A stretch of 61,125 nt of DNA, taken from positions 1 through 61,125 of the forward strand of contig JAYELL010000114.1 in the NCBI GenBank assembly GCA_034717495.1. Reading direction: 5' to 3'. Source of the stretch: Chloroflexota bacterium (GTDB lineage: Bacteria > Chloroflexota > Anaerolineae > JAAEKA01). Every line of letters starts with the position of its first letter. Position 1 is the stretch's first letter. Positions 1 to 31,916 of this stretch are shown in pieces. Under the pieces are notes generated by a model. The model was not told where the DNA came from. It did no database searches and saw only the letters and a list, made by a program, of their open reading frames with translations. Made by a program: the position numbers and the translations under genes.

Positions 1-493
1 ATCCGGTGTTGTGTCCGGACAGCGATGTGAACACGCAGGGAGATTTCAATGTGGCGGTGCAGGGGGCCTTTAACCAGGGGGCATTGTATCTGCAGTGGAT
101 GGGGCATGGCAATCCGGTCCATTGGGGTGGTGGGCCCGATTTCCGCTATGATCACATCGACGGGATGCAGGCAAACACGAGGTGGCCGGTGACAGGACAC
201 TATGCCTGCAACACAGGTTGGTTTGTGTACCTGGACAATGGCAGGCAGACATTGGGAGAGAGTTTTGTGGTGCGGTATGGGGATAGGGGGTCGGTGGCGG
301 ACCTGGCGGGTGCGGGATTGCACACCAGATCGTCGATGTGGACATACGATCAGGGGGTGGTCAAGTCGATGTTCCAGGATCGCATTGAGCGTGTGGGTGA
401 CATGGTCAACGCCTCCAAGCTCCACTATTTCGGCGCAACCCCCACTTACCATGACGTCATCGACACCATGACCCTGTTCGGCGATCCTGCTAC
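1..493 (+). repeat. Direct repeat copy A (peptidase catalytic core)
   Basis: Bases 1-493 match 3612-4104 with about 14 substitutions and no gaps by eye. Identity stops abruptly at a Thr codon after the conserved FGDPAT motif. Copy A may begin before the window. Confidence 0.95.
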
Positions 494-1055
494 CAGGCTG
501 CGATTGCCAGCCGCTCCGGACTTGAGCGGTGCCATGTTGCAGACCCACAGGAACTGGCTACCGCCGGCTCAGCCGGTGACGGTGACCATGACTCTTAGCA
601 ATAGCGGCAACGCGCCATCCATCGGTACATCGGTGACGATGACACTGCCAACAGAGTTAGCTGCGCCTCACTGGCTGTCGGCTACGACATCAAGTCTGGT
701 ATACCACCCCGACAGCCATGAACTGCATTGGAGTGGCGACCTGGCCCCCGCGGCTCAGGAGGTCCTGGCCTTTGCCAGCATCATCTCGCCAACGTTGACA
801 TCGTGTGGACAATTCGATATTCAGGGTACAGTGACAGATGAGCTACTTGTCACTACTCAGCTTAGCGCGACGGTCAATCTGGCTGTACCTGACGTAACCT
901 GTGACGGCCTGGTGGATATCGTCGATATTCAACAGGTGGCCGGTCGCTGGGGCAGCTTGACCGGCGATGGCCTCTACGAGCCTCGCTATGATCTGGATGC
1001 TGATGATCAGATCACAGTAATGGACGTGATTGCAGCGGCTCAAGTCTGGCAATAA
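1..1055 (+). CDS. C25 (gingipain-like) secreted peptidase, 5'-truncated, dockerin-like C-terminus
   Basis: Only the 3' part of the gene is in the window: the frame is open from base 3 and the paralog at 1265 shows that about 780 residues precede it. The fragment begins inside the peptidase domain. The family's catalytic His lies in a GHG motif (codon 105-107) and the Cys in ACNTG (codon 207-209). After the catalytic part come a beta-sandwich of DUF11/CARDB type (about bases 520-880) and two calcium-loop repeats of dockerin type I style (about 885-1050; DxxCDGLVD and DLDADDQITVMD). The first 493 bases are nearly identical to part of the next gene, while the tail is unrelated. Family members are secreted cysteine endopeptidases; the substrate is unknown. 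A strong terminator follows. Confidence 0.85.
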   Translation, partial: PVLCPDSDVNTQGDFNVAVQGAFNQGALYLQWMGHGNPVHWGGGPDFRYDHIDGMQANTRWPVTGHYACNTGWFVYLDNGRQTLGESFVVRYGDRGSVADLAGAGLHTRSSMWTYDQGVVKSMFQDRIERVGDMVNASKLHYFGATPTYHDVIDTMTLFGDPATRLRLPAAPDLSGAMLQTHRNWLPPAQPVTVTMTLSNSGNAPSIGTSVTMTLPTELAAPHWLSATTSSLVYHPDSHELHWSGDLAPAAQEVLAFASIISPTLTSCGQFDIQGTVTDELLVTTQLSATVNLAVPDVTCDGLVDIVDIQQVAGRWGSLTGDGLYEPRYDLDADDQITVMDVIAAAQVWQ

Positions 1056-1264: not shown

Positions 1265-4200
1265 ATGAGACGGAAAACCCTGCAATCGATGAAACGACTA
1301 TTGCTAATGCTCCTGGTGAGCATCCTGATTGTTGCACAGCCCTCCCTGGTTGCGGCAGCGCCAGAAGGCGATTCTGGAGAGATTATCCGTCGGGTGGAGA
1401 CGTTGGCATACGAGTTGGATGAGGGTGGTGTACGGATTCCGGGCTATGGGATGAGCAGCGAGCCTGGGGCGCCAAGGTTGCCAGTGTCTACATTTGCGGT
1501 GGAGATTCCTGGGCAGACCGGCTGGCAAGTGAGCTACCAGTCGTTGGGTGGACGTGATCTGCAGGAACGGGCAACCATTACAGCGGTGCCGGTGGCGGAA
1601 TGGGACTCGCCCGTTGATCTTGTGGCAGGGTTTCCGGAGTATGTGCCGGAGGTGGATCGGCCAGATCCGGCAATCTACCAGGTGGATCGGTTTTACCCAC
1701 CGGAGCCGGTGGTGTGGGGAGAGCCACAGCGGCAGCGGGGGCAGTGGCTGTTGCCCGTGCAGGTATATCCCTTTCAATACAATCCTGTGACAGGTGAATT
1801 GCGCTATCATCCCGACGTGACGGTGCGGATCGACGTGTCGGGAGTGGCGAGAGGTGAGGAAAAGCGGGGATGGGTGAAAGAGCCGACAGGTCTGTTGGGA
1901 GAAGGGGATTGGCTGCGAATCCGCACGGGAGAGCGGGGGATGTACCGCTTGACGCATGGAGAGTTGCTGGCAGCCGGCGTACCGGTGGAAACGGTGGATC
2001 CTGGGACGTTCCGGATGCTATACGAAGGGCAGGAGATCGACATCGAGGTAATCGGGGAGAATGATGGCAGCTTCGACGATGGGGACCTGGTGGTGTTTTT
2101 CGCGGAGCCCTACGAGCAACGCTGGCAGAACCACAACGTGTACCAGTTCGGCTGGGGAGTTGGAGCGGGAGCTCGGATGGGCAGCCGAGGAGGCGATAGT
2201 GGGATGCCGGTGGTGACGACCGTGACGCGGACGATGCATGTGGAGAATGATCTGGAGTATTGTACCTGGTGTCCCCGGCCTGTGGAGGCGGATCACTGGT
2301 TTGATGATTGGCTGATGGCATCGAGTTCGAATCCCACTGTAACGTGGAGTTTTCCGTTAGGGTTGGGGCATCCGTTGATAACGGGCAATGTGGAAGTGCG
2401 AGCGGTAATCCACTCGGTACTTGCGTCAGGGGTGAATCCCGATCACTACGCCGGATTGTATCTGAATGGCAATCAAGTAGGTGAGTATTGGTGGGATAAG
2501 GACAGTGCCAGCGAGTACTGGATCAGCGAGACGGTGCCTGCAAGCTGGCTGAATGGGGCCAGCGATCAGCTCGTGATCGTGGCGGATCGGAACCAGTTGG
2601 GGTTGGATTATTATCTGATGCCTGATTGGGTAGAGTTGGCGTACGGGGCGGAAGCGATCGTCGATGCGGGAAGCGAGAAGAGCTACTACGTAGAGCAAGG
2701 GGCTGCGGGGGCTGCCGGGTTGGAGGTGAGGGGTTTCAGCACAGATGCGATTGCGGTGTATGAGATAGCAAATGGTTGGCATCCGGTCAAGATGGAGACG
2801 GTGGAGAGCGAGCTGGATGGCGGAGAGTACACGGTGCGGTTCTGGGACGACGAGATGGCCGCAGGGTCGTATACGATGAGTGCGTTGGAGAAAGATGTGT
2901 TGCTGGCGCCGTTGGCCGTCGAGGTGGACGAACCGACGAGTTGGAGCACACCCGGACACAGCACCGACTACATCGCGATCATTGGCTCATCGCGGACACG
3001 GATAGCCTTAGGGAATTCGATAGGCGAGCAGTTGAGTGCTGCGGTGCAGCCGTTGCTGGCGCACCGGGCTGCAGAGGGGTATCGCGTGGTGGAGATCGAC
3101 GTGCAGGACATCTACGACGAGTGGAGCTATGGGCGTGCGCATCCGCAGGCGATCCGGGATTTTCTGACCTATGCTTACTGGAACTGGAATGAAGGTGAGG
3201 ATCCTGTGGGATATGTGATGCTGGTGGGGGATTCGACCTATGATCTGCGGGATGTTCTGGCTAGCCCGTTGCAGACGTTAATACCGCCCTATCTGGCCCA
3301 TGTGGATCCATTTGTAGGCGAGGTGCCGGCGGATAGCCGCTACGTGAGTGTGGATGGGCCTGATGATTACCTGCCGGACATAGCGATAGCGCGGTTGCCG
3401 GCCAACGATGGGGTGGAGGCGGCCAACGCGGTCGCCAAGATCCTGGCCTATGAGGATCCGGCACAGGCTGCACCCGGCGACTGGCAACAGCGGGTGTGGT
3501 TCACCGCGGGCAAGTGCAATGACTCTGGAGGGAACTTGCAGGAGCCGAGCAATGAGATACGTGCCGACTGGTTACCGGCGGACTATCTGGATCTTCAGAT
3601 CTACTATGGGGATCCGGTGTTGTGTCCGGACAGCGATGTGAACACGCAGGGAGATTTCAATGTGGCGGTGCAGGGGGCCTTTAACCAGGGGGCATTGTAT
3701 CTGCAGTGGATGGGGCATGGCAATCCGGTCCATTGGGGAGGTGGGCCCGATTTCCGCTATGATCACATCGACGGGATGCAGGCAAACACCAGGTGGCCGG
3801 TGACAGGACACTATGCCTGCAACACAGGTTGGTTTGTATACATGGACTATGGCCGGCAGACGTTGGGAGAGAGTTTTGTGGTGCGGTATGGAGATAGGGG
3901 GTCGGTGTCAGATCTGGCGGGTGCGGGCTTGCACACCAGATCGTCGATGTGGACATACGATCAGGGGGTGGTCAAGTCGATGTTCCAGGATCGCATTGAG
4001 CGTGTGGGTGACATGGTCAACGCCTCCAAGCTCCACTATTTCGGCGCAACCCCCGCTTATCATGACGTCATCGACACCATGACCCTGTTCGGCGATCCTG
4101 CTACAAAGATTCGTTATCCTGGCACTGCCCTTTCGGTCGAACTTGACTATTTCATCGCTACCGCTTACACCGATCATATACTGCTGGAATGGGAAACCGT

Positions 4201-4666
4201 CAGCGAGATCGACACAGCGGCTTTCCGGCTTTATCGTGCCACGGTGAACGACCCTGGTCTTCCGACCTTGATTTCGCCAGTAATCCCGGCCCATCCGGGA
4301 TCGGTGCTAGGCTACTACTACGATTATCCGGATACATTTGACCTGGTTCCAGGTACGGCCTATTGGTACTGGATTGAGGACATGAACCTCAGTGGTATCT
4401 GGACGCTAAACACCGAACCCGAACTGGTACCCAGCGCCACCTTCCTTGGAGTCGATTGCTCCCGCTACGACTTCGACTGCAACGGCCATATCGACACCGG
4501 GGATATCACGGCCGCGGCAGACCGTTGGGACTGCGCGACCGGCGACACCTGTTATGCCTCCACCTACGATCTGGATAATAATGGCCGGGTTGCCGTCAAG
4601 GATATCATGACCGATGCCGGATTCTGGGGGTGCAATTTCAACCAGGCCTGTTACCTGCTGCCCTGA
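1265..4666 (+). CDS. C25 (gingipain-like) secreted peptidase with dockerin-like C-terminus
   Basis: The protein has 1133 residues. The ATG at 1265 has GGAGG at 1251-1255. A Sec signal peptide covers about residues 1-31 (ends AVAAA-like). A long propeptide region follows, with paired 'FPFQYNP' and 'GDLVVFFAEPYE' blocks shared with the paralog at 6804. The peptidase domain spans about 565-960, with His818 in GHG and Cys852 in ACNTG, the dyad expected for clan CD family C25. A fibronectin-like module (LEWETVSEID...FRLYRA) spans about 965-1065. Two EF-hand-like dockerin repeats cover about 1070-1130 (DFDCNGHIDTGD, DLDNNGRVAVKD). Dockerin-like tails usually bind a cohesin partner, but no cohesin gene is in the window. 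The role is inferred as extracellular or surface proteolysis. Confidence 0.9.
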   Translation: MRRKTLQSMKRLLLMLLVSILIVAQPSLVAAAPEGDSGEIIRRVETLAYELDEGGVRIPGYGMSSEPGAPRLPVSTFAVEIPGQTGWQVSYQSLGGRDLQERATITAVPVAEWDSPVDLVAGFPEYVPEVDRPDPAIYQVDRFYPPEPVVWGEPQRQRGQWLLPVQVYPFQYNPVTGELRYHPDVTVRIDVSGVARGEEKRGWVKEPTGLLGEGDWLRIRTGERGMYRLTHGELLAAGVPVETVDPGTFRMLYEGQEIDIEVIGENDGSFDDGDLVVFFAEPYEQRWQNHNVYQFGWGVGAGARMGSRGGDSGMPVVTTVTRTMHVENDLEYCTWCPRPVEADHWFDDWLMASSSNPTVTWSFPLGLGHPLITGNVEVRAVIHSVLASGVNPDHYAGLYLNGNQVGEYWWDKDSASEYWISETVPASWLNGASDQLVIVADRNQLGLDYYLMPDWVELAYGAEAIVDAGSEKSYYVEQGAAGAAGLEVRGFSTDAIAVYEIANGWHPVKMETVESELDGGEYTVRFWDDEMAAGSYTMSALEKDVLLAPLAVEVDEPTSWSTPGHSTDYIAIIGSSRTRIALGNSIGEQLSAAVQPLLAHRAAEGYRVVEIDVQDIYDEWSYGRAHPQAIRDFLTYAYWNWNEGEDPVGYVMLVGDSTYDLRDVLASPLQTLIPPYLAHVDPFVGEVPADSRYVSVDGPDDYLPDIAIARLPANDGVEAANAVAKILAYEDPAQAAPGDWQQRVWFTAGKCNDSGGNLQEPSNEIRADWLPADYLDLQIYYGDPVLCPDSDVNTQGDFNVAVQGAFNQGALYLQWMGHGNPVHWGGGPDFRYDHIDGMQANTRWPVTGHYACNTGWFVYMDYGRQTLGESFVVRYGDRGSVSDLAGAGLHTRSSMWTYDQGVVKSMFQDRIERVGDMVNASKLHYFGATPAYHDVIDTMTLFGDPATKIRYPGTALSVELDYFIATAYTDHILLEWETVSEIDTAAFRLYRATVNDPGLPTLISPVIPAHPGSVLGYYYDYPDTFDLVPGTAYWYWIEDMNLSGIWTLNTEPELVPSATFLGVDCSRYDFDCNGHIDTGDITAAADRWDCATGDTCYASTYDLDNNGRVAVKDIMTDAGFWGCNFNQACYLLP
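3612..4104 (+). repeat. Direct repeat copy B (peptidase catalytic core)
   Basis: Nearly identical partner of bases 1-493 (offset 3611). It covers the His and Cys catalytic segments of the peptidase at 1265-4666. See findings. Confidence 0.95.
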
Positions 4667-4791: not shown

Positions 4792-6612
4792 ATGAACACT
4801 GGTGATCAACGAGTCGAACCAGGCAATCGGATTGATCGTTGGATAACCTGTGTTATCTCTGCCAATCCACCCAGGTGGGCAGTTGGCGCTGTTCTTCTGG
4901 CCTTGATAGCCTTTGTCATGATACAGGCCGCTATGGCGTGGCGTCATTTCCCGGGATTTGTGGGGGATCACGGGTGGTATTTGCAGGTGGCGAATCGTGT
5001 CAGCCAGGGAGAGATCCTTTATCGCGATGTGGCGTGGGCTTATGGACCGCTGCCGGCGCAAACACTGGCTGCCATGTTTGCGTTCTTTTCTGCCGATGCG
5101 GCCTGGGCTAGTTTGGTAAATCTTCTGCTGACGTGTCTATCGGTGTTGCTTACCTACGGAGTTCTCCGCTGTCTGTTGCCGGCCGGCATTTCCCTGGTCT
5201 TCACACTGTTCGCCCTTCTAGCAGGTCCTTATGTATGGGGCAATCTATTCCACACGCATTATTACGTTTACACTCAGGCAGTCGCATGGGGTTCGGTCGC
5301 CAGCCTGTCCACCTTGTTAGCCGCGCTGCAATGGCAGCAAACGAAGACCCAGTCTTGGCTGATTGTGGCCGGAGTCCTGTCAGGGTTTGCCATCCTGAGT
5401 AAGCCGGAATTTGGCCTTACCGCTGTGGCCGCATCAGTCGCTGTCATGGTAGCAGCTCGAGCATCGATCGGCGCTTGGATTCGGTTCCTGCTGGGGGCCG
5501 GATTTTCAGCGATAGTCGGATTCGGTGGGCAAGCGAACCTGGCGGGTTGGCAAGCTGTTTGGCGGGGTTACTCAGGCTACGATCAACTTAGGCAGCGAGC
5601 TCTTTGGGGAACTAGATCAGGCGACATCCTCAGGTCCCTTGGATTCTACAGCCTGTGGGCAGCTGTGTTAGCTCTTTGGATGGCGAAACGCCATCCACGA
5701 AGGCGAGTTGTTGCGGTGGTTGCAATGATAGTAGCAATCCTCGCTGCTCTGGTACTGTTCTGGCCGGATCTCGCCGGCGTAGGTCGGCGAGCGTTACTTT
5801 CCGGGATTGGCACGGGTGAATGGGAATCAGTCGATCCAAGACCGGAGAACCTGCTGCTTCTCGTTGTGGCAACTCCATGGGCTCTTTTATTTTGGATTCT
5901 GTTGTGGGCTGGGTGGCGCGGTTACAGCCATAATGCTCCTCCGGTCTGGTGGGGTCTGTGGGCATTCTCGCTTCTGTCGAACCTGCGTTTAGTTTTCACC
6001 GGTTTTGCCAGCGGTTTTGCAGCTGCCCCTGCACTGGGAGTACTGTGGTGGCTCCTGGTTGACGCCAATGAAGACCAGGATAGGGCGTTGCGACTAGGGC
6101 GATCAGCTTTGATCGGTCTAGGAATCCTTCTCACGGTCAATCTTGTGGCCCAGTTAATAGTACCGAACCCCTTTTTCAATGGCGCGCGCGCCCGCTTAGA
6201 AACAGAGTTGGGCGCGATCGTGACTGCCCAGACATATGCGCGAGAAGCCGAGATTGTTCAAACGAAGCTAAGGACTGACCTTTCGAAATCGTCTTCTCTG
6301 TTTTCCCTCGGCTGGGGTGCGGACTGGTACCTGCTGTCGGGGAGTTCAAACCAAACCCAATTCGATCTGGTGCTTGCCGGCCTTGGGACCACCGAACCGG
6401 AATCTGTTCGACTCCAGGAATCGCTGGTTGATAATCCACCACAAGCCGTGGTTGTGCCATCCGGCTGGTTGAACTACAACAGTCCAGGCAATCGGGATGC
6501 TCAATCTTTTCAGGAAGGATTGCCAGTTTTCTGGCAGACATTGAATCGCGATTACGTCGATCAAACTCCCGAGGGCGTATCGAGCTGGGTGCTAAAGGTG
6601 ATGCCAAAATGA
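4792..6612 (+). CDS. GT-C/PMT-like polytopic membrane glycosyltransferase
   Basis: The protein has 606 residues and about a dozen hydrophobic segments starting near residue 33. After the first segment comes GDHGWYLQVANRVSQGE, then ILYRDVAWAYGP. This is the first extracytoplasmic loop pattern of ArnT/PMT-type (GT39/GT83) enzymes, where an acidic residue and a downstream Tyr-Asp are catalytic or structural. Such enzymes move a sugar from a polyprenyl-phosphate donor to protein or lipid outside the membrane. It sits alone between two C25 peptidase genes on the same strand, so glycosylation of secreted neighbours is possible but unproven. The substrate cannot be read from the sequence. The ribosome binding site is weak. 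Confidence 0.7.
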   Translation: MNTGDQRVEPGNRIDRWITCVISANPPRWAVGAVLLALIAFVMIQAAMAWRHFPGFVGDHGWYLQVANRVSQGEILYRDVAWAYGPLPAQTLAAMFAFFSADAAWASLVNLLLTCLSVLLTYGVLRCLLPAGISLVFTLFALLAGPYVWGNLFHTHYYVYTQAVAWGSVASLSTLLAALQWQQTKTQSWLIVAGVLSGFAILSKPEFGLTAVAASVAVMVAARASIGAWIRFLLGAGFSAIVGFGGQANLAGWQAVWRGYSGYDQLRQRALWGTRSGDILRSLGFYSLWAAVLALWMAKRHPRRRVVAVVAMIVAILAALVLFWPDLAGVGRRALLSGIGTGEWESVDPRPENLLLLVVATPWALLFWILLWAGWRGYSHNAPPVWWGLWAFSLLSNLRLVFTGFASGFAAAPALGVLWWLLVDANEDQDRALRLGRSALIGLGILLTVNLVAQLIVPNPFFNGARARLETELGAIVTAQTYAREAEIVQTKLRTDLSKSSSLFSLGWGADWYLLSGSSNQTQFDLVLAGLGTTEPESVRLQESLVDNPPQAVVVPSGWLNYNSPGNRDAQSFQEGLPVFWQTLNRDYVDQTPEGVSSWVLKVMPK

Positions 6613-6803
6613 CCGACTTCCAAATCGTGATGAAATGATCAATAAAGAAGAGGTACTGGCGCAAATGGGTTTTGCCATGTATACTAACCGAGCCAGGGAT
6701 CACATTGACCAGCCCAGGGGGCAACCCCAAAATCGTGTTGTGATCGCGGCGCGCGAGAAGGGAAGGACCGCTGAAATGGTGCTGCCCAAAGAGGTGGACG
6801 GCG

Positions 6804-9734
6804 ATGCGATGCATGAAAAACAGGCAGGGATGGACGATCACGCTGTGCGTAGTGGTAGCACTGTTATTGGCGTCTTGGTCACCCTCTGTCCCGGGGGCAC
6901 AGGCACAAGAAGTGCCCGCGGCTTCTTCTGGCATGGAGCCAGACAATCATGAGATAAAGTTGCAGGTCGCGACTCCGGATTATTCCATCGGACTTCGCGG
7001 TGTGCACGTGGATGGCTATGCACTCTATGATAGCCCCGGTGCACCTGAATTGCCCGTATGGCGAACCGTTGTTGAGCTACCGGATGTCGGTGGATGGGTC
7101 CTCTCATTTGAATCAGCGGGTAGCCGGCAGCTGCCATTTGATGGAACAATCAGGTCTGTGCCGGTGCCCGATCTGAATCTTGCAGGCGCCGACAACTGGC
7201 TGGACCGCCGGGATTTGCCAACGAGTGTTCCTGAGATCGATCTTCCCGACCCGTCCATATATGGCAGGGATGCTTTTTTCCCGGCTGTGCCAGTACAGGC
7301 TGGCGCGGAACAGTGGTACCGGGGACGGCGCCTGCTGGCAATCGAGGCTTTTCCTTTCCAGTACAATCCAGTATCTGGGATTCTGCAGTATCACCCCGAC
7401 CTCAGAATAACGATACGGATCGATGTTGATCAGAGTGCCGCCAAGCCAGACTCCAAGAGGGTCGCACGCTTGATGCCCGGTGTCTCGCAGATGATGGATG
7501 GGGCAGTGCGTGTGCGCACCGGGCAGCGCGGCCTTCATCGCCTGACCTATTCTGACCTGCAGTCTGCAGGAGTGCCGCTTGATTCCGTCGACCCTGCAAC
7601 TTTCGCGATGTCCTATCTGAGCCAACCGGTCGATATCCAGGTCGCCGACGGGAACGACGATAGCTTCGATCCAGGTGACCTGGTGATTTTCTATGCCGAG
7701 CCCTATGAAGGCCGATACATGACACACAACGTGTACCGGTTTTCCTACGGCGGCATGGCCTCCGCGGATCGAATGGATCAGCGAGCTGTGATACCGACCG
7801 GTTCCGAGCCCTTGATCACCACGATTACCCAGACCGTTCGAGTAGAGGAAAACCGCGATTACCGGAGCAACTACCAACTGGCCAGAGATGCAGATCACTA
7901 TTTTGATAATGTGCTCTATCCCAACATCGCCTTTCCCACGGTGACGGTCACCTATCCCCTGGATCCACTGGTAGCTCTCCAGGCTGCTCCGGGCACGGCC
8001 CTGGTGAAAGCCTCTCTTCATGGAGGAACCGATCAGGTGGCGAGTCCCGATCAGTCCGTCGTTGTCCGCCTCAACGACCATGAAATTGGTACCTTTCAGT
8101 GGAATGGAAGCGTTCCCTATCTGGCAATAGCTTCGGTCCCCTCTCATTGGCTGGATGGCCTGCCCAACGTTATCACGCTGGAAGCGGCCACCAGCCAGTT
8201 ACCCGATCTGTTTTTTTATTGGGTCTCTCCTGACTGGGTGGAAGTTACCCTGCCGGCCTATCCCGTGCCCATTGACGACCGCATTGATATTGAGGCGATT
8301 TCCGTAGCTGGCCAGAGGGCTCAGGTTCAGGTCCCCGGCTTTTCGACGGATACCATATCTGTGTATGATGTTCGAGATCCTCGCCACCCGGTCCAGCTAA
8401 CAACAGTCCAAGCCAATGGCAGTGGGGGTAATCACACCATCGCATTCTGGGACGAATGGGCTCATTCTGCGCCCACTCCGAGTTATTCCCTCTCTTCCCG
8501 GGAAGCCCTGCTCGTGCCGCTGGCGGAAGAGATCGATTCACTCTCTTCCTGGGCATCTCCCGAGAACAGGGCAGATTACATTGCCATCTTGCATCGTTCC
8601 CTGTGGAATGAGATCGACCCTCTGTTGGATCATCGGGCTTCCGAGGGCTTGCGTGTAGCCAAGATTGATGTCCAGGATCTTTTCGATGAGTTCAGCGGTG
8701 GCAGGCTGGACCCTGAGGCCATTCGCAGTTTTCTTGCCTATGCCTTCGGTAACTGGAATCAGGCTGAGGAGCCGCCGCAATTCGTGCTCCTGGTCGGCGA
8801 CGGGCACTTCGATTTTCGTGACGACGAGGAGACCGGCCTGCCCAATCTGATTCCCCCCTACCTGATTCATATCGACCCATGGCTGGGAGAGACGGCATCC
8901 GATAACCGCTATGTGAGCATCGACGGCCCTGATGATTTCCTGCCGGACATGGCGATCGGGCGAATTCCTGCCAAGACGGGTGCCGATGTGAGCGCTGTTG
9001 TAGACAAGATCCTGGCTTACGAAGAAGCGCCGCGTTCAGGAGACTGGCGGCAACGTGCCGTGTTCGTGGCAGATAACAATATGGACCCTGCCGGTTCTTT
9101 CCACAGCTACAGCGATGACATCATCGATAATTGGCTGCCGCCATCCTATGAAGCTGAACGGGTATACTACCGCATGGACCCCGCTCATGATACCGGTGAG
9201 GAAATGCGCACGGCGATAAAGGAAGCATTTGATGGAGGGGCGGTTTACTTGCAGTGGTTCGGCCATGCCTCGCAACACCGCTGGGGTTCCGTGAGTATGT
9301 ACGACATTCTTGACCCTGCATCGTTGGTGCCAACTGACCAGCATCCCTTTGCAGTGCACTACAGCTGTTGGTCTGGCTACTTCATCGGTATCGATGGGGA
9401 TTTCCAGTATGGAGACAACGAGCAGTCTCTGGGTGAGGTTTTGCTGTTGACGCCGGAGCGCGCTGCTGTAGCTGATCTATCCCCCAGTGGTTTGCATATC
9501 GGCAGCGCGCTGCGCAATATGAATCGCGGTCTTGTGAAAGCTATGTTTCAAGACCGCTTGCCCCGGGTAGGCCAGGTTGTTGATTCTGCACGACTGTTTT
9601 TCTTTGAAAACAGCGGCTATTCTCACGATTTGATCGATACATCGATCCTTTTTGCCGATCCTGCTTTGAACCTGAAGGCTCCAAGCATGATGTATTTGCC
9701 TTACCTGGTGGCGGAGACGTCTCAAGGGTACTGA
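6804..9734 (+). CDS. C25 (gingipain-like) secreted peptidase without dockerin, short LP-type tail
   Basis: The protein has 976 residues. The ATG at 6804 has GAGGTGG at 6791-6797. A Sec signal peptide covers about residues 1-35 (cut near GAQAQE). The propeptide and peptidase resemble the 1265 protein throughout, with His821 in WFGHASQ and Cys855 in HYSCWSG. The catalytic motifs are more diverged than between the other two copies, so this is an older paralog. It lacks the fibronectin-like and dockerin-like modules and ends soon after the peptidase with MMYLPYLVA. That short hydrophobic Leu-Pro tail recalls the RFMPMV end of the protein at 60068. The stop is only 3 bases before the next start, so it is probably co-translated with the nucleotidyltransferase, S26-like and HprK-like genes. 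This implies a role linked to them. Confidence 0.88.
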   Translation: MRCMKNRQGWTITLCVVVALLLASWSPSVPGAQAQEVPAASSGMEPDNHEIKLQVATPDYSIGLRGVHVDGYALYDSPGAPELPVWRTVVELPDVGGWVLSFESAGSRQLPFDGTIRSVPVPDLNLAGADNWLDRRDLPTSVPEIDLPDPSIYGRDAFFPAVPVQAGAEQWYRGRRLLAIEAFPFQYNPVSGILQYHPDLRITIRIDVDQSAAKPDSKRVARLMPGVSQMMDGAVRVRTGQRGLHRLTYSDLQSAGVPLDSVDPATFAMSYLSQPVDIQVADGNDDSFDPGDLVIFYAEPYEGRYMTHNVYRFSYGGMASADRMDQRAVIPTGSEPLITTITQTVRVEENRDYRSNYQLARDADHYFDNVLYPNIAFPTVTVTYPLDPLVALQAAPGTALVKASLHGGTDQVASPDQSVVVRLNDHEIGTFQWNGSVPYLAIASVPSHWLDGLPNVITLEAATSQLPDLFFYWVSPDWVEVTLPAYPVPIDDRIDIEAISVAGQRAQVQVPGFSTDTISVYDVRDPRHPVQLTTVQANGSGGNHTIAFWDEWAHSAPTPSYSLSSREALLVPLAEEIDSLSSWASPENRADYIAILHRSLWNEIDPLLDHRASEGLRVAKIDVQDLFDEFSGGRLDPEAIRSFLAYAFGNWNQAEEPPQFVLLVGDGHFDFRDDEETGLPNLIPPYLIHIDPWLGETASDNRYVSIDGPDDFLPDMAIGRIPAKTGADVSAVVDKILAYEEAPRSGDWRQRAVFVADNNMDPAGSFHSYSDDIIDNWLPPSYEAERVYYRMDPAHDTGEEMRTAIKEAFDGGAVYLQWFGHASQHRWGSVSMYDILDPASLVPTDQHPFAVHYSCWSGYFIGIDGDFQYGDNEQSLGEVLLLTPERAAVADLSPSGLHIGSALRNMNRGLVKAMFQDRLPRVGQVVDSARLFFFENSGYSHDLIDTSILFADPALNLKAPSMMYLPYLVAETSQGY

Positions 9735-9737
9735 GCA

Positions 9738-10940
9738 GTGACTATAGATATGCCTCTCACTGTCCCTCTGGAGGGAAACACCCGACGGTTTCTCCAATCC
9801 TGCATTCGAAGCCGCTGGAATCCCGAATCGATGATCCAGGCGAAGCGACTTGCCAGACACGGGAATGTCGACTGGGATACCTTTTTGGATTTTGCGATTC
9901 AGTCCAGGATAGCTCCTCTGCTCTGGGGGTGTGTGCGCGATTATCCCGACCTGATACCGCGCCGGGTAGGAACAATGCTGGAGGCCTGTTATCAGAACGC
10001 GGCTATCCGAAACACACTCTATTCAGTCGAACTTGGTCAGGTTCTGGATGGCCTCTCATGTAGGGGACTCCCGGTGATTGTGCTCAAGGGTGCGGCTCTT
10101 GGAGATACGCTGTACCAGAACAAGGCCCTACGTCCCATATCGGATATTGATCTGCTTCTGCGTAAACCAGATATCTCGGCTGTTCTTGATCATCTTGGCA
10201 CGGACGGCTATCGACGGGATGTCAGCGAACCTCGAGATGGCATGGCGTTGGACTACGAAAGTGAATTGGTGGTGCAAAAACCAGGGCCAATTGATCTCAC
10301 GGTGGATCTGCACTGGCACCTGGTGGATTCTCCCTATTACCAACGACGAATGCCGTTGGACTGGTTTTGGAGCACTGCGGAGGAAGCTCGTATTGGCGGC
10401 ACTGAGGCGTTGGTGCTGGGCCTGGAGGCCAATCTCCTCTATCTGAGCGCTCATCACGTATTGCACCATCAGGGAGAGGGGGTTCGTTGGCTTATCGACA
10501 TCGCTGGATTGATCTCTGAGAACAAGGATCGCATTGACTGGGATTTGCTCCTCTTGAAGGCACAGGCATTTCAATTAGTTACGGCAATTCGGGTCGTATT
10601 GGCTCAACTGACCATTGAATGGGAGCTTCCTGGCCTGACGCCCCACCTGCTTGCGGCACAGTCGCTGCCGATAAGTAGAGAAGAGCGGCGGATCGTCAGC
10701 TGGATGATTGCCGATAACCGACCGGTCGTCCAGAGATTCTGGGCAGATCTTGCCAGCCTACCTGATTGGCGGTCCCGTATCCCTTATGCTTTCGCCAATC
10801 TTTTTCCAAATCCTGCGTACATGCAAGAACGCTACGGTCTCTCCAGTTCAGTGCTTGTGCCGTTGGCATATCCATATCGCTGGGTCTTAGGTTTATGGGA
10901 GCTGGCGTCGAGTCGGCGGGCCATGGAGGACGATGGATAG
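9738..10940 (+). CDS. Nucleotidyltransferase family protein (NTP_transf_5 type)
   Basis: The protein has 400 residues. GTG start at 9738 with AAGGG about nine bases before; ATG at 9750 is the alternative. The segment LPVIVLKGAAL (about 112-121), followed by LRPISDIDLLLR with Asp136 and Asp138, is the hallmark of the PF14907-type nucleotidyltransferase fold. There the DxD pair binds the metal-nucleotide. The remainder is alpha-helical with conserved His and Trp (LHWHLVDSPYY). Members of this family recur in gene clusters with PqqD-like proteins, S24/S26 peptidases and HPr-kinase-like proteins that tailor ribosomal peptides. The next two genes fit that set. The modified substrate is unknown. 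Confidence 0.75.
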   Translation: MTIDMPLTVPLEGNTRRFLQSCIRSRWNPESMIQAKRLARHGNVDWDTFLDFAIQSRIAPLLWGCVRDYPDLIPRRVGTMLEACYQNAAIRNTLYSVELGQVLDGLSCRGLPVIVLKGAALGDTLYQNKALRPISDIDLLLRKPDISAVLDHLGTDGYRRDVSEPRDGMALDYESELVVQKPGPIDLTVDLHWHLVDSPYYQRRMPLDWFWSTAEEARIGGTEALVLGLEANLLYLSAHHVLHHQGEGVRWLIDIAGLISENKDRIDWDLLLLKAQAFQLVTAIRVVLAQLTIEWELPGLTPHLLAAQSLPISREERRIVSWMIADNRPVVQRFWADLASLPDWRSRIPYAFANLFPNPAYMQERYGLSSSVLVPLAYPYRWVLGLWELASSRRAMEDDG

Positions 10941-11395
10941 TGTCCGACATGCGGGCCTCTTCGGGCAACGATTTTCCTCCTCTGCGGGATTGGCTGCCTT
11001 TATTGCAGGAAAGCCTGGCCCAGTCGGGGCGATTTCGCTGGCGGTTGCAGGGAACCAGCATGATGCCTACCCTGCCGCCTGGCTGTGAAATCGAGATTGT
11101 TCCGGCTCCAAAAGAGCTTCGATCGGGCCTCTTGGTCGTTTTTTCCAACGGCGCAACCCTGGTCGCACACCGGGTGGTACATCGGGACGGTCAATACTGG
11201 ATAACCCAGGGTGACGGGCGCTGGCATCCTGATCTCCCCCTGGATGCCGACCAAGTGCTGGGAACTGTGGCATCGGCCTATCAGGGCGAAAAACGTATAT
11301 GGCCCCGCCGTTTCGGGCGAGTCACCCGTTGGTTCTGGGTGGCCCGGGCCCATTTGTTGTGGACGCTTCGCCAGGCATGGCGCCTGACCCATTAA
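10940..11395 (+). CDS. S24/S26-type signal-peptidase-like protein
   Basis: GTG start at 10940 overlaps the upstream TAG by one base (TAGTG), with GGAGGA at 10925-10930, giving 151 residues. The start chosen avoids a long overlap with the nucleotidyltransferase. GTSMMPTLPPG (Ser40) is the S26 nucleophile box. LVAHRVV (His77) and ITQGDGRW (Asp92) match the Ser-His-Asp arrangement of archaeal/ER/SipW-type signal peptidases rather than the Ser-Lys dyad of bacterial LepB. There is no clear membrane anchor, which is unusual for a signal peptidase. Its role is probably processing a peptide within the cluster. An inactive or regulatory homolog cannot be excluded. Confidence 0.7.
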   Translation: MSDMRASSGNDFPPLRDWLPLLQESLAQSGRFRWRLQGTSMMPTLPPGCEIEIVPAPKELRSGLLVVFSNGATLVAHRVVHRDGQYWITQGDGRWHPDLPLDADQVLGTVASAYQGEKRIWPRRFGRVTRWFWVARAHLLWTLRQAWRLTH

Positions 11396-11422
11396 GCCGC
11401 CAGTCGGATCCGCCAGGACGCC

Positions 11423-12247
11423 ATGCAATCATCCCTTGACCTCTCGATTGCCAACATCGAATTCAGAATAACGACCCCATCGCCTGAATGGACGCAGCAC
11501 CTTCGCAGCCACTACGGTGATTTTTTAGCCGATGATCAGGCCACCTGGACAATCGACGTGGTGCAGGATTCCAATGTCAACCCACTTTCCGAGTCATGGG
11601 TTGTTCACGAGGAATCAGTGACCCGGTTTTGGATTGGAATCTACGGCGGGACGATCAATCTGGCTAACCAGGTAGCCCGGGTGGGTGTGGCAACACCACA
11701 GCAAGCCCCCTTCGCAGTTGATCGAGTGCTGGCCTTTGTCTGCATGCAGGTGCTTGCCCGGGAGGGCAGGGGGCTATTGCTTCATGGAGCAGGAATCGAG
11801 CGCCATGGGCAGGGGTTGGCCTTTTGCGGACCATCGGGGGCAGGCAAAACGACGGTATCACGTCTGGCCACCGACCCGCATGCAGTGCTGACCGATGAAA
11901 CCCCGATCGTATTGTTGACTGAGTCCCTTGCTATGCTGCGAAGTACACCTTTTTGGGGTGCCAGCACACCAGATGAACTGATCTCAAGAAGCAACCGGCA
12001 AGTGCCATTGCGCGCCCTGTTGTTCCTGGAGCAATGGCCGGCGTTTGAGTTGACGCCTTTGCAGCCGAGCGAGGCAGTCATGGCCCTGTTGGCGACCGAG
12101 AAAGTAGCGACCGAGCGAGTATCCAGCGCAATGGCATGGCTGACAGTGGCTGGCAAACTGGTTTCCCAGGTACCATCCTTCAGGCTGCGCTTCAGGCCTG
12201 ATCAGGAGCTCTGGGGCTTTCTCGACCGGGAACTCTTTGAGCGTTAA
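11423..12247 (+). CDS. HPr kinase-like (HprK-type P-loop) protein
   Basis: The protein has 274 residues. The central block LLLHGAGIERHGQGLAF is followed by the P-loop GPSGAGKT (136-143, Lys142) and then LTDE (Asp158). This is the layout of the C-terminal kinase domain of HPr kinase/phosphorylase. The N-terminal DRTGG domain and the HPr-specific loop are not recognisable, so carbon-catabolite control is unlikely. HprK-like proteins of this size occur in lasso peptide and related RiPP clusters, where some phosphorylate the peptide. It starts 27 bases after the S26-like gene and closes the set. A 343-base gap follows. Confidence 0.75.
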   Translation: MQSSLDLSIANIEFRITTPSPEWTQHLRSHYGDFLADDQATWTIDVVQDSNVNPLSESWVVHEESVTRFWIGIYGGTINLANQVARVGVATPQQAPFAVDRVLAFVCMQVLAREGRGLLLHGAGIERHGQGLAFCGPSGAGKTTVSRLATDPHAVLTDETPIVLLTESLAMLRSTPFWGASTPDELISRSNRQVPLRALLFLEQWPAFELTPLQPSEAVMALLATEKVATERVSSAMAWLTVAGKLVSQVPSFRLRFRPDQELWGFLDRELFER

Positions 12248-12407
12248 GATAGTCACCCGCGATGGCATAAAATGCGTGTCAATCGATTGGGTCCTATGTG
12301 CGGGAATGACGATTTCGAGGCGAGGGTTGCGCACATCCAATAGACGCAGTTACCGCCCCGCTGACCTTCCCCCTGCTTTTGATACACAATCCGTTTGATA
12401 GTGCAAT

Positions 12408-12435
12408 TTGTGGCATTTGGGACCCGTGGTATAAT
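12408..12435 (+). promoter_or_regulatory. Candidate sigma-70 promoter for the PD40 protein and tyrosine kinase
   Basis: TTGTGG (12408-12413), a 16-base spacer, then TATAAT (12430-12435). It lies 155 bases before the next start codon. Confidence 0.5.
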
Positions 12436-12556
12436 GATCATCTGGGCCAGACTCCGATCCCGGTATCTGCAGCTTCGATCTCTTACACTGGGCTGTCAAC
12501 CCTCTCTGCCGAAAGAGTACTGTAGGGGCGTTGCACAAACACTTTTAGTCTTCTAA

Positions 12557-12576
12557 ACCGGGGGCGGTCTCCCGGT
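12557..12576 (+). promoter_or_regulatory. Leader hairpin just before the PD40 gene
   Basis: ACCGGG (12557-12562) pairs with CCCGGT (12571-12576), followed by CTTGTTTG. It lies in the leader, directly ahead of the start codon, so it could affect read-through or initiation. The stem is short. Confidence 0.35.
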
Positions 12577-12589
12577 CTTGTTTGATGTT

Positions 12590-15031
12590 ATGGCAAACGA
12601 CCATGGTACCTGTCCCTACCTGGGACTGGAATTCGACTCTTCTGTCAGGCTAAGCTATGCCGATTCAGGGCATAGTTGTTTTGCTCTTCCCCAAAAAGGG
12701 CAGATAAGACCAGATCTCGAACATCAGACCCGCTTCTGCCTGGTTTCGAGCTTCCCGGCTTGCCCGAATTTCCAGACAGCGGAAAAAGGGGATCGGGCGC
12801 CAGAACCTGCGTCGCCACCTGCCAAAGAATCAAGCTCGGTGCCCTGGTGGCAGTTGGCCCTCTGGGCAATTGCCTTGTTGGCAGCAATTGGGGTTGTCTG
12901 GCGCCTGACAGATGTTTTGGCTCAACCTGACACAGCGAGTCAGGACACCCAGCCTGTTACTCAGGATACCACGCCCGTACCCGGTGATGAAACTCCCGCC
13001 GATTGGCCCACACCTGACCCGGCATACGTGGCCGCGGCAATTGTGGACGATCAATCGCCAACACCTGAACCAATGCCGCAAACTACGCCTAAACTGCTGG
13101 CGGATGAGACTCTGGTCTCATTGGTTCCTGAGCAGGGAGCTGTGGGCTGGGTCGGCAGCCAGCAGGCCAACGGAAGCAATCTAGGTGATTCCTACCTGCA
13201 TGCGGGGATTGTTCAGGGAGAGATATTTTACGGCATCCTTCAGTTCGATCTGTCCCGCCTGAAAAGGGGGGCGCCGGTTCGGCAAGCCGCGCTGCTGTTA
13301 ACTGGTCTGGACGATAAACGTCTCAACATGAATGGCAACGGCTCCTGGCAGGCTCGTTGGCTGGATCCTGAGATCAACGAGAGGTGGAGCCGGCAAGCCT
13401 TTCAGGATTTTCACAACGCGACCATATTGCAGTCGTTGTTGCCGGCTGTCGGCCCGACTGAATTATCACCCCTTGTTCCCAACAAGTTCGTGTTCAACGA
13501 TGATCAGGTGAGGTCTCTTGAACAAGCTATCTACGATGAAAGCTACCTGGTTGCCTTCCGCCTCGATGGGCCATTGACCACATCTTCGTGGACCGACGAA
13601 GATGGCAATCTTAGGGATGAGGATCTTTTTTCTTGGGACAGCGGCTATGGGCCTGCAACGCGGGGCAATTCTCCCGTGCTGCAACTTGTCATGGGTTCTG
13701 CTCCCGCAACGCCACCTGCTGTTCCGACCAGGGACTTAATTGTGGTCACCAGTACGCCAACCCCTGAAAATGTTTTGACCGTGGCAGCGCAGCTCCATAC
13801 GGCCACTGCTATCGCTGTTACTACTGGCACCCCCACCCCTACCCCCAGGGCCATGGTGACGGCGACACCCACGCCGGTCAATGAAGCCACGGCTCGGGCA
13901 GATCGGTTTTTTCTGGGCTTGCCACTGGTGATCACCGAGACCCCAACTCCGGCCAACGTGCTGACGGCAACCATGATTGCAATGCTTCAAACCGCCGAGG
14001 CTTTCACGACAGGCACGCCGACTCCCCTTCCCGAGGGATACATCATGGCGACACCTACGCCGACCTTTGTCGTCATTACTAATACACCCACGGCTCAAAG
14101 TGCCCGGGAATTGCTGGACCGAACCATCATCGAGGCGACCCGTACGGCGACAGCCGGTCCGCCGACGGAGATTCCCGTGGGAGTAGCTACCGCTACACCC
14201 ACACCAACCGGCACACCGCTGCCATTGAATCAGACCACGGTGGAGGCCAGGATCCTTCTGCAGACTGTAGAGGCCTTGACCATTGGGACATGGACGCCGA
14301 CGCCCACGGCAACCTGGACCCCGACGGCTACACCAAGCCCCACACCGGCAGCAGATGGAACGTCCCAACCCACAGTTGTGGTGCCCGAGGAGCCGGAATC
14401 TCTCACAGTGCCAATTCCTGAGCCGACGCGGGTTCCCTTGGGATCCACGCTTGGAACTGTAGCGGGTAAGCTTCTTTTCCTGTCGGATCGACTTGGCGAG
14501 ACCCGTATCTTTGCAATTGACAGTGATTGCGTGTATTCTCCTGAAGGCTGTGGCAACGTCCAGGCTGATCCTCTGGTCCAGGAAACTGCCTACATTCTGG
14601 CTCGGGATCAACAGAGTCTTGATATTGGCGGCAGCAGGCGAGTGATTGTACAATTGGACGCCCGCGGTGTCCCACAGCTTGCTGTAGTCGAGCTTGACAG
14701 CCATGACTCGAATGCGATTACCTCCCTTGAGGGCGCTGCGTACGATCCAGCGTGGTCGCCAGTGGACGATCTCATCGTGTTCGTATCCAATGATCCCGGC
14801 AACGATGAGATATTTACCATTGCCGCGGATGGATCTGGAGAGACCCGGCTGACCAACGTAGCTGCTTTTGACAAGCATCCTACCTGGTCTCCCGATGGTC
14901 AGACTATAGTCTTTTATTCCGATCGAGCGGGAGACCGTCGTCAGTTGTGGGTCATGAATGCTGACGGCTCTCAGCAACGCAACATAAGCAACAACCAATT
15001 CAACGATTGGGACCCCATTTGGGTAGAGTAA
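12590..15031 (+). CDS. Membrane-anchored Cys-rich / DNRLRE-like / Thr-Pro linker / PD40 protein
   Basis: ATG at 12590 is preferred (813 residues); TTG at 12578 is in frame. The N-terminus holds a compact Cys/His region (Cys8, Cys30, Cys50, Cys58, with His28 and His45) starting HGTCPYLGLE, which may bind metal. A single membrane segment lies near 87-107. Outside the membrane come a beta-sandwich of DNRLRE style (about 150-370; GILQFDLSRL), a long linker with many (A/T)TPTPT units (about 385-600) and a C-terminal PD40/TolB-like propeller with DPAWSP, HPTWSPDGQ and DWDPIWVE. The stop is 6 bases before the tyrosine kinase start, so the two are co-transcribed. A role in sensing or organising the cell envelope is inferred. 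It shares its linker and propeller design with the protein at 38233. Confidence 0.75.
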   Translation: MANDHGTCPYLGLEFDSSVRLSYADSGHSCFALPQKGQIRPDLEHQTRFCLVSSFPACPNFQTAEKGDRAPEPASPPAKESSSVPWWQLALWAIALLAAIGVVWRLTDVLAQPDTASQDTQPVTQDTTPVPGDETPADWPTPDPAYVAAAIVDDQSPTPEPMPQTTPKLLADETLVSLVPEQGAVGWVGSQQANGSNLGDSYLHAGIVQGEIFYGILQFDLSRLKRGAPVRQAALLLTGLDDKRLNMNGNGSWQARWLDPEINERWSRQAFQDFHNATILQSLLPAVGPTELSPLVPNKFVFNDDQVRSLEQAIYDESYLVAFRLDGPLTTSSWTDEDGNLRDEDLFSWDSGYGPATRGNSPVLQLVMGSAPATPPAVPTRDLIVVTSTPTPENVLTVAAQLHTATAIAVTTGTPTPTPRAMVTATPTPVNEATARADRFFLGLPLVITETPTPANVLTATMIAMLQTAEAFTTGTPTPLPEGYIMATPTPTFVVITNTPTAQSARELLDRTIIEATRTATAGPPTEIPVGVATATPTPTGTPLPLNQTTVEARILLQTVEALTIGTWTPTPTATWTPTATPSPTPAADGTSQPTVVVPEEPESLTVPIPEPTRVPLGSTLGTVAGKLLFLSDRLGETRIFAIDSDCVYSPEGCGNVQADPLVQETAYILARDQQSLDIGGSRRVIVQLDARGVPQLAVVELDSHDSNAITSLEGAAYDPAWSPVDDLIVFVSNDPGNDEIFTIAADGSGETRLTNVAAFDKHPTWSPDGQTIVFYSDRAGDRRQLWVMNADGSQQRNISNNQFNDWDPIWVE

Positions 15032-15037: not shown

Positions 15038-16657
15038 ATGGAACTTCGCCAGTATTTTGACACCTTACGCAAGTGGTTATGGCTGATATTGTTATCAACG
15101 GCTATAGCTACCGTGGCCAGTTTTCTGGCGACGCGCCAACAAGCACCTATCTATAGCGCCAGTACGACCCTGATGGTGGGTCAGACCCTGGAGAATCCCA
15201 ACCCGACAGGAAATGAAGTGTGGCTGTCCCAGCAGCTTGCTCAGACCTATGCAGAGCTTGCCAAACGTGATACCGTCAAGCGAGCTGCCATGAAGGAACT
15301 CAACCTGAGTTGGCTACCGGAATACACGGTTTCACTTGTGCCGAACACCCAGCTTCTGGAGATTCGGGTTGTTGATGTTGATCCTGTCAGGTCCCGGGAT
15401 GTAGCCAACTCGTTGGCTAACCAGTTGATATTGCAGAGTCCCAGCGAATCGGACCAGGATCGACAGGATAGACAACTCTATGTCCGGCAGCAACTTGACG
15501 AACTCGAAGAAAACATAGATTCGACTAAGGGGCGCATCGGTGAGTTACAGGGCGACCTGAGCGAGATGTTCAGCGCCAGGCAGATTGCTGACACACAGAC
15601 CCAGATTTTTGCGCTGGAACAGAAGCTCAATGGCTATCAGGCTAACTACGCGTCACTTTTGGGCTTCCTCGAGGGAGGGATCAATACGCTGCGGGTGGTA
15701 CAGGAAGCCAATCTCCCGGCTACCGCGATCGGACCACAGAAAATGATGACTATCCTGTTAGCTGCAGCAATTGGCCTTTTGCTGGCAGTGGCAGCCGCGT
15801 ATTTCCTTGAATATTTGGACGATACCCTCAAGGACCCGGATGATATCAAGGATGCGATTGATCTGTCGACTCTGGGTGCGATTACCCGCATTGAGGGCGA
15901 AGGTCCCGAAGAAAAACTGGTGACAGCTCTGCAACCGAAATCTCCGGTTTCTGAGGCTTATCGGATTCTGCGTACTAATATCCAGTTTTCGGCACTGGAT
16001 GACCCCCCGAAGACACTGTTGGTAACCAGTTCCAATCCTACCGAGGGCAAGAGCACTACCCTGGCCAATCTGGGCGTTGTGATGGCACAGCAAGGACAAA
16101 GTGTTGTGATCATCGATAGCGATCTGCGCCGTCCAGTCCAGCACCGGATCTTCCAGGTGCCTAACAACGCCGGGTTAACCAATGCGCTGCTTCAAGATAA
16201 ACCATCAGCAACTGATTTTCTGCAAACCACCCGGATCGATAACCTGAAGGTTCTTACTTCCGGGCCCCTTCCCCCGAACCCTGCCGAGCTGTTGGGATCG
16301 AGCCGCTTTCGGGAAATGCTCAAAGATATGGAGAATCAAGTCGACATTGTTTTACTCGATAGCCCCCCAGTGCTGGCGGTGACCGACGCGGCAATTCTCG
16401 GACGGCAGGTTGACGGCGTATTGCTAATTATCGACGCAGGAAAGACCCGTCGGCAGATGGCTGTTAGTGCCAAAGATTCAATGGAGAAAATCGGAACCAA
16501 TATTCTCGGCGTCGTGCTCAACCGACTCAAACCCCAGGGCTCAGGCTATTACTATTACTATTACAATCGCTATTACACCTATGGCGAGGATGGCACAGAT
16601 CAGAAAAAACGGCGAAGAGGGCCACGTCGACCCAGGACGGATCAAGCAAAGGCGTGA
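15038..16657 (+). CDS. Polysaccharide co-polymerase/BY-kinase (Wzz-CpsD fusion)
   Basis: The protein has 539 residues. The N-terminal Wzz domain starts LRQYFDTLRKWLWLIL (membrane segment about 14-31), then an extracytoplasmic coiled region (about 140-200), then a second membrane segment (about 237-258). The cytoplasmic kinase domain has Walker A around Lys338 (SNPTEGKST), Walker A' VVIIDSDLRRP and Walker B IVLLDSPP. A tyrosine cluster near 504-514 (GYYYYYYN, RYYTY) is the autophosphorylation tail of bacterial tyrosine kinases. Such fused proteins set chain length and export of surface polysaccharides through cycles of phosphorylation. No polymerase or flippase is adjacent. Confidence 0.9.
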   Translation: MELRQYFDTLRKWLWLILLSTAIATVASFLATRQQAPIYSASTTLMVGQTLENPNPTGNEVWLSQQLAQTYAELAKRDTVKRAAMKELNLSWLPEYTVSLVPNTQLLEIRVVDVDPVRSRDVANSLANQLILQSPSESDQDRQDRQLYVRQQLDELEENIDSTKGRIGELQGDLSEMFSARQIADTQTQIFALEQKLNGYQANYASLLGFLEGGINTLRVVQEANLPATAIGPQKMMTILLAAAIGLLLAVAAAYFLEYLDDTLKDPDDIKDAIDLSTLGAITRIEGEGPEEKLVTALQPKSPVSEAYRILRTNIQFSALDDPPKTLLVTSSNPTEGKSTTLANLGVVMAQQGQSVVIIDSDLRRPVQHRIFQVPNNAGLTNALLQDKPSATDFLQTTRIDNLKVLTSGPLPPNPAELLGSSRFREMLKDMENQVDIVLLDSPPVLAVTDAAILGRQVDGVLLIIDAGKTRRQMAVSAKDSMEKIGTNILGVVLNRLKPQGSGYYYYYYNRYYTYGEDGTDQKKRRRGPRRPRTDQAKA

Positions 16658-16693: not shown

Positions 16694-16711
16694 CTGCGTA
16701 ACTCCAGTTAT
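16694..16711 (-). repeat. 18-base element, copy 1 (inverted relative to copy 2)
   Basis: The minus strand reads ATAACTGGAGTTACGCAG, identical to 45323-45340 on the plus strand. It overlaps the last codon of the radical SAM gene. Confidence 0.7.
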
Positions 16712-17889: not shown

Positions 17890-17938
17890 CGCCGTGGGCT
17901 CCTCTTGAGAGGTCAAGGAACAGGTGTTCTTTGAATCC

Positions 17939-17967
17939 ATTATACGAACAAATGTTCCCGTTGTCAA
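17939..17967 (-). promoter_or_regulatory. Consensus sigma-70 promoter of the radical SAM gene
   Basis: On the minus strand TTGACA (17967-17962), a spacer of exactly 17 bases, and TATAAT (17944-17939). Both hexamers are perfect. The predicted transcript starts about 40 bases before the ATG at 17889. Confidence 0.85.
17945..17958. promoter_or_regulatory. Candidate LexA (SOS) box inside the promoter spacer
   Basis: CGAACAAATGTTCC fits the Gram-positive SOS operator pattern GAAC-N4-GTTC (half sites 17946-17949 and 17954-17957). It lies directly between the -10 and -35 hexamers, where a bound repressor would block RNA polymerase. Confidence 0.7.
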
Positions 17968-18101
17968 CACGATGGCTTCGCGCGAGACTGTTTCACCTTG
18001 GCAGGCGCGGCAAGCTATTTGATGCCGCCTCCTTGATAGAATCCGCCAACGGTGCTAGAATCGCTGACAAACCGTTGTCGAAAGGAGACATCCCGGGACT
18101 T

Positions 18102-31826: not shown

Positions 31827-31916
31827 TATTGAACCATCCGATAGTGTCAGGAAAGAAAACCTCCGAAGAGAACACTTCTCTCCGGAAGTTGTATGCACCT
31901 CACAAAAGTAGAGTTG

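Follow-up and report, generated by a model that had tools for sequence, protein, structure and literature searches.

Linear polyphosphorylated peptides (LPP), a class marked by multiple phosphates on a single core Ser, are encoded by lppA-K-B-S-D-N clusters that lie in capsule loci of Bacillota and combine the same four enzyme types that concern us here with an exporter (PMC13381572). In these systems, LppK phosphorylates Ser3 of the peptide core, and the SipW-like peptidase LppS, which needs its Ser, His and Asp, cuts off the leader aided by LppB, a RiPP recognition element (RRE; RiPP, ribosomally synthesized and post-translationally modified peptide), the cleaved residue lying 15 past the leader Tyr (Y-16, T-1). 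In lasso peptide systems, PadeK is reported to place a phosphate on the precursor's C-terminal Ser, and PsmN to attach hexoses at that site (PMC9266682). LPP and paeninodins are described as restricted to Bacillota and of unknown role (PMC13381572, 2026). Here, we analyze a 61,125-nucleotide stretch of DNA (hereafter the window), contig C114 (JAYELL010000114.1) of the 5.0 Mb genome of a Chloroflexota bacterium, in which a secreted C25 peptidase (family Peptidase_C25) is followed by three genes, the trio: an NTP_transf_5 protein (NTP5), an S26-like peptidase (S26) and an HprK-like kinase (HprK).

In our proposal, this operon forms the downstream half of a locus for a RiPP of the linear phosphorylated peptide kind, which lies among exopolysaccharide genes and is genetically tied to secreted C25 peptidases; to this reading, proposed steps included, we assign a probability of about 0.72. 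In simpler terms, an assembly gap has probably cut through a larger locus of uncultivated Chloroflexota, of which these four genes form one end and whose products would be a small modified peptide along with secreted proteases and surface sugars. Re-reading the coordinates and assigning families from Pfam, NCBIfam and relatives gave the four genes and spacing that an earlier note on this DNA had described:

6804..9734, + strand: third C25 peptidase, with a signal peptide (read by eye), a propeptide, and catalytic His (FGHAS) and Cys (SCWSGYF) motifs.
9738..10940, + strand: NTP_transf_5 protein, LppN/PsmN-like; probably transfers a sugar or nucleotide to the phosphorylated peptide, by analogy with PMC9266682.
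10940..11395, + strand: S26B/SipW-like peptidase, LppS-like, with invariant Ser40, His77, Asp92 and Asp98; probable leader peptidase, by analogy with PMC13381572.
11423..12247, + strand: HprK-like kinase, LppK/PadeK-like, with invariant His121, Lys142, Asp158 and Glu159; probable peptide Ser kinase.

Three bases separate the C25 and NTP5 genes, the S26 gene starts from a GTG at 10940 with a 1-base overlap, and the kinase gene follows it after 27 bases. NTP5 matches its Pfam family at E 8.4e-49. Alone, the window S26 is weak (Peptidase_S24 at E 3.6e-4, below cut-off), as is its match to sigpep_I_arch, a model matched by 14 of 18 S26 relatives (best 1.1e-15); in a fold search SipA was the sole match with E <0.001 (8.6e-4). 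The kinase has no Pfam match, and its matches to ScmC (1e-11) and HprK_rel_A/B all fall below the NCBIfam cut-offs. Its AlphaFold2 model (pLDDT 92.8) aligns with PEP carboxykinase (PEPCK; Z 16.7, rmsd 4.6, 248 aligned), giving it an HprK/PEPCK-type P-loop fold. The PEPCK fold family also includes HprK, and the lack of an HprK entry among the 50 rows listed for this model by VIA-align was not counted against that identity. We regard both weak assignments as settled because relatives keep the residues listed above or match sigpep_I_arch: in alignments the four S26 residues are invariant across 18 sequences and the four kinase residues are kept in 12, and the window proteins are 43-53% (S26) and 37-52% (kinase) identical to their closest trio-bearing relatives.

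The trio is RiPP-tailoring machinery, as the earlier note had supposed, and stands in complete clusters of relatives. The order NTP5-S26-HprK occurs in the window and in four relatives (L042, L046, L103, L106), of which L103 reads BYK-NTP5-S26-HprK-PqqD-radical SAM-precursor-C25 and L106 reads TolB-BYK-NTP5-S26-HprK-PqqD-radical SAM-precursor-C25-surface protein-HprK-NTP5, both on public contigs (BYK, bacterial tyrosine autokinase). A complete core using these genes elsewhere had been named in the earlier note as an outcome that would refute its reading; it does exist, in L103 and L106, but together with C25, and so completes the idea.

The same note held that the cassette lacks PqqD, cyclase, radical SAM and precursor. 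For the window this stands as regards PqqD and lasso cyclase, with none among the Pfam matches of 30 window open reading frames, and as regards a precursor, for which the best match to our precursor model had E 1.2. Small frames at 6560-6960 and 12200-12650 were read as candidates inside or beside the four genes and the leader fits none; eight [WY]xxPx frames within 4.7-14.3 kb appear chance-like. What changes the picture is a second contig of the same genome, labeled contig C25 (fetched as L072; the label has nothing to do with the peptidase family), and its relation to the remaining genes near the window's start:

1..127, + strand: repeat that opens the contig and recurs exactly at 3612-3738, within the second C25 gene; it marks the probable assembly break in a tandem C25 duplication.
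6..1055, + strand: first C25 peptidase gene, 3' end (5' end off the window), with a dockerin-like C-terminus.
1265..4666, + strand: second C25 peptidase, secreted, with a dockerin-like C-terminus; the final 127 bases of contig C25 recur exactly at 1379-1505.
4792..6612, + strand: membrane glycosyltransferase-like protein (PMT; PMT_2 match weak, below cut-off).
12578..15031, + strand: TolB-like beta-propeller protein, a recurrent neighbor of the trio in relatives.
15038..16657, + strand: Wzz/BYK protein of exopolysaccharide export, likewise a recurrent neighbor.

The window thus has the gene order C25-NTP5-S26-HprK-TolB-BYK. The end of contig C25 carries glycosyltransferase genes, an HprK-like kinase (8134-9138), a PqqD protein (9135-9452, E 4.6e-18), a precursor (9593-9781) that ends ...GPFGPLTS and has a cysteine-free core, and, last, a C25 gene cut off after its 5' part. 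The window opens on the 3' part of a C25 gene, which is what that truncated gene requires, and both exact 127-base matches lie within the second C25 gene, in an order and on a strand that suit a join. A tandem C25 repeat is therefore the probable place where the assembly broke, leaving the window as the downstream half. A PMT gene also follows the precursor-adjacent C25 gene in L039, giving the same precursor-C25-PMT order. Judged from these sequences, the locus probably reads glycosyltransferases-HprK-PqqD-precursor-C25-C25-PMT-C25-NTP5-S26-HprK-TolB-BYK; PqqD and precursor would most likely lie just beyond the contig edge, and the cassette would not be coreless.

No peptide-type radical SAM protein and no cyclase was found in this locus, and to that extent the earlier description holds; the absence of radical SAM fits the cysteine-free core. 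The radical SAM protein with a helix-hairpin-helix motif at window 16708-17970 (- strand) differs in type from the peptide radical SAM proteins. A lasso cluster was considered and rejected, as Pfam scans of window 1-17 kb and L072 gave neither lasso cyclase nor B2 peptidase (a 496-aa L072 gene was labeled by homology only) and the genome's only Transglut_core3 match lies on contig C84. The genome also holds a second locus with PqqD, an HprK-like kinase and a B12-binding radical SAM protein (L071 4657-15558; contig C101, ~110.7-121.6 kb), where a short peptide with the lasso-like leader YxxPxLxxxxxLxxxT adjoins C25-FN3-like-C25; L077 has a comparable set, and peptides of this type turn up in L084, L089 and L090 as well.

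How often these genes travel together was asked of related genomes, the named ones being metagenome-assembled genomes from Caldilineales and other Anaerolineae. Kinase relatives occur in 37 of 100, C25 in 70 and PqqD in 68. A C25 domain lies within 10 kb of 27 of 52 kinase places (101 genomes), against ~1% expected, which bears out the claimed tie of trio to C25; a trio with no consistent C25 link, the other outcome named as contrary, was not what emerged. The count used 52 kinase places, 83 PqqD places and 150 listed C25 places (more existed). A listed PqqD lies within 10 kb of 32 of the 52 kinase places, in a list that dropped sub-cut-off rows and most matches in long open frames and kept one 341-aa frame. 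Seven kinase places have C25 without PqqD (the window, five relatives of the same family and one other genome), and with this same-family variant we dropped the idea that PqqD always stands beside the kinase. The exact order C25-NTP5-S26-HprK, for which the earlier note had suggested a search, was found in the window only; a looser form of it persists, in that C25 adjoins HprK in all five same-family relatives, with S26 between them in four (C25-S26-HprK) and NTP5 in one (C25-NTP5-HprK-TolB-BYK). In other families a second block recurs, precursor-C25-S26-PqqD-FN3-like/transmembrane protein-C25 (L075, L076, L078, L079).

The suggested search for co-occurring small frames was productive. When small frames near kinase, PqqD or radical SAM genes were compared all against all, a single family emerged, in 20 loci; a model search enlarged it to 48 members (E up to 1e-5, in loci fetched for carrying a kinase, PqqD, C25 or precursor match). 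The leader is [WY]xxPx[IV] and then, approximately, LExxA; in 47 of 48 the residue 15 past the W/Y is Ala, a position partly set by the alignment that found the precursors. Cores of the W type continue with Q/D (QGG, QGP or QDP), often with a GPL motif, and those of the Y type mostly with GSP. Between the L039 and L043 precursors dN is 0.04 against a dS of 0.63, consistent with a protein-coding gene under constraint. The C-terminal residue is Ser in the contig C25 precursor and in three of four precursors of genus g3 (L039, L043, L044), and Thr in L041. Besides the window's own genome, 32 of 100 relatives have the family; at a stricter limit, 4 of 301 genomes across the phylum had it (the own genome, two of the class and one outside it), in a search that scored at most 21 candidates per genome and whose misses are soft.

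Core cysteine follows radical SAM closely: it is present in 17 of 18 precursors with a radical SAM gene within 300 bases versus 3 of 30 without (Fisher 4e-9), and away from contig ends in 14 of 15 versus 1 of 18, numbers that shared ancestry inflates. Within 10 kb of 52 precursor places, PqqD stands at 27 and C25 at 24. A same-strand C25 gene starts no more than 700 bases downstream of 23 of the 48 precursors and within 5 kb of 6 more, and another 6 have no room for one; of the 32 genomes in which a precursor matched, 30 had a C25 among those listed. Because the precursor loci were picked by genes that were then counted (kinase, PqqD, C25, precursor), these linkage figures are biased upward, and related sequences were counted singly. 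Further precursor-like peptides, several in genome G099, were seen in L117, L118 and L120-L126, with no C25, PqqD or HprK gene within 8 kb in the fetched stretches.

The third C25 peptidase matches Peptidase_C25 at E 1.4e-71 and also Propeptide_C25, and of 62 long C25 proteins, 49 carry both catalytic motifs by a simple motif scan. Several features of these proteins and their neighbors are recorded alongside. Dockerin-like repeats end two of the window's C25 peptidases (900-1055, 4500-4666) and others in L039, L044 and L062, suggesting an extracellular assembly. Many C25 and surface proteins (window 9700-9731; L031-L068) finish in a short YLPLV-like tail that may serve as a C-terminal signal for sorting or processing. 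Surface proteins adjoin C25 genes in L045 (16957-17817), L040 (9585-12674) and L071 (11820-13247), some such proteins having a C-terminal transmembrane stretch and an Arg tail; the two scanned, from L045 and L071, belong to no Pfam family. Elsewhere in the window lies a Tad-type pilus cluster (31170-44262, - strand).

Taken together, these observations suggest a pathway in which PqqD would bind the precursor leader at WxxP. The HprK-like kinase would then phosphorylate a core Ser, the terminal residue of ...GPFGPLTS being the likeliest site in this family, and NTP_transf_5 would put a sugar or nucleotide onto the phosphate, both by analogy with the lasso enzymes. By analogy with LppS, the S26B peptidase would cleave after the Ala 15 residues past W/Y, and the product may be exported together with polysaccharide. 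Radical SAM, where present, probably acts on the core cysteines. The weakest step concerns C25, encoded just after many precursors, whose most likely task is to trim the exported peptide or position it on the cell surface; that it serves there as maturase or anchor is guessed from its adjacency, secretion signal and propeptide. Some peptidases act as ligases, as in legumain-type ligation, and a bolder and rather doubtful extension would be an Anaerolineae RiPP class in which a phosphorylated, possibly glycosylated and partly radical-SAM-modified peptide is processed outside the cell and fixed to exopolysaccharide or surface proteins by a dedicated clan CD (C25) maturase/ligase.

Several findings weigh against the proposed locus and pathway. 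The window itself has no precursor, and its joining to contig C25 rests on repeat k-mers, not reads; contig C25 moreover has its own HprK, so that two kinases must share the work. Pfam scans found no ABC gene in window 1-17 kb or L072, an MsbA-like exporter being part of the core LPP gene set; L075 and L076 have two ABC genes flanking the precursor. NTP5 is absent from the operon in four of six same-family genomes and S26 in one of six. The LPP Ser3 is not conserved (W-type QGG/QGP/QDP; Y-type mostly Ser at position 2), and the kinase has Asp-Glu where lasso kinases reportedly have Asp-Asp. Finally, for 13 of 48 precursors C25 lies nowhere within 5 kb, on contigs that allow at least 900 bases.

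That last count also favors the view that the trio serves a RiPP while C25 is a bystander sharing the surface/exopolysaccharide island, as do the frequency of C25 in the class and its position away from HprK at 116 of the 150 listed places; the C25 starts directly downstream of 23 precursors and the near-universal C25 in precursor genomes argue the other way, and we consider a bystander possible but fairly unlikely. Should the two be linked after all, the modified peptide might regulate C25, as inhibitor or activator, instead of being its substrate. Precursor-C25 adjacency would suit this, and the C25 propeptides imply that activation is controlled; we think such regulation unlikely.

Coincidental similarity of duplicated C25 genes, with a truly coreless window operon acting in trans, would account for the six same-family genomes that all have C25-HprK pieces without adjacent PqqD and for the four of genus g3 in which those pieces lie on contigs other than the PqqD/precursor locus. 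Both contig ends, however, stop inside one and the same C25 repeat, where the 127-base matches are exact and agree in order and strand, and L039 shares the precursor-C25-PMT order; we regard this reading as quite improbable. Least credible is a kinase and nucleotidyltransferase acting on polysaccharide or a lipid-linked sugar beside a plain signal peptidase. The Wzz-BYK, TolB-like and glycosyltransferase neighbors invite the idea, but the same trio in relatives precedes PqqD, radical SAM and a conserved precursor, and Bacillota LPP clusters sit in capsule loci too (PMC13381572).

If the locus is the LPP-related one we propose, that kind of system, precursors included, recurs outside Bacillota in about a third of the sampled relatives, and its frequent partner C25 offers a lead on function. 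The pairing of radical SAM with core Cys is a natural switch that makes the chemistry testable, and the locus illustrates how a complete cluster may seem coreless once an assembly has broken at tandem protease genes. Literature search listings limited to open papers showed no link between C25 peptidases and RiPPs, and the comparable Bacillota clusters are described without a C25 protease (PMC13381572).

Set against described systems, the C25 proteins share domain, propeptide and catalytic His and Cys motifs with PorU/gingipain-type peptidases, and differ from PorU, the type IX sortase, in that the third C25 scores 183.4 bits on the T9SS_sortase model (NF033707), far under its cut-off of 420. 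Resemblance to the NCBIfam SynChlorMet/HPr-rel-A models extends to the HprK-like and PqqD-like proteins and to the relatives' SPASM radical SAM proteins (ScmC, ScmD and ScmE models), with every match far under cut-off (ScmC 44.8 of 125 bits, HprK_rel_A 29.1 of 200, ScmD 32.3 of 100); among the literature matches listed, only unrelated uses of 'SCMC' appeared. Phosphorylated lasso peptides of the paeninodin/pseudomycoidin type have in common with our locus the kinase, NTP transferase, PqqD and WxxP leader, and same-family cores mostly end in Ser, the residue phosphorylated by PadeK; in our locus neither lasso cyclase nor B2 peptidase was found, and the probable leader peptidase is S26-like.

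The closest likeness is to the LPP described in PMC13381572. Both have an HprK-like kinase with an NTP transferase, a SipW-like (archaeal-type) peptidase with catalytic Ser, His and Asp, a polysaccharide-locus setting without a detected cyclase, and a short precursor with a [Y/W]xxPx[V/I] leader and a predicted cut 15 residues after Y/W; a discrete PqqD-type RRE joins this list if the link between contig C25 and the window holds, being absent from the window itself. Of the LPP precursor definition (35-200 aa, YxxPxVLxHQxIxFETxxS), length and [W/Y]xxPx[IV] fit, whereas the VLxHQxIxFETxxS portion is replaced by [IV][IV]xExxLExxA and many leaders are WxxP. No exporter was seen in this locus and core Ser3 is not kept. 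We do not file the system as LPP proper because the full leader consensus is missing and the exporter is not established. On its gene content the locus shares most of the defining parts of LPP, and appears related to them yet distinct: it belongs to another phylum (Chloroflexota; Anaerolineae/Caldilineales), is linked to a secreted C25 partner, and in part of its clusters adds an optional radical SAM protein with matching core Cys.

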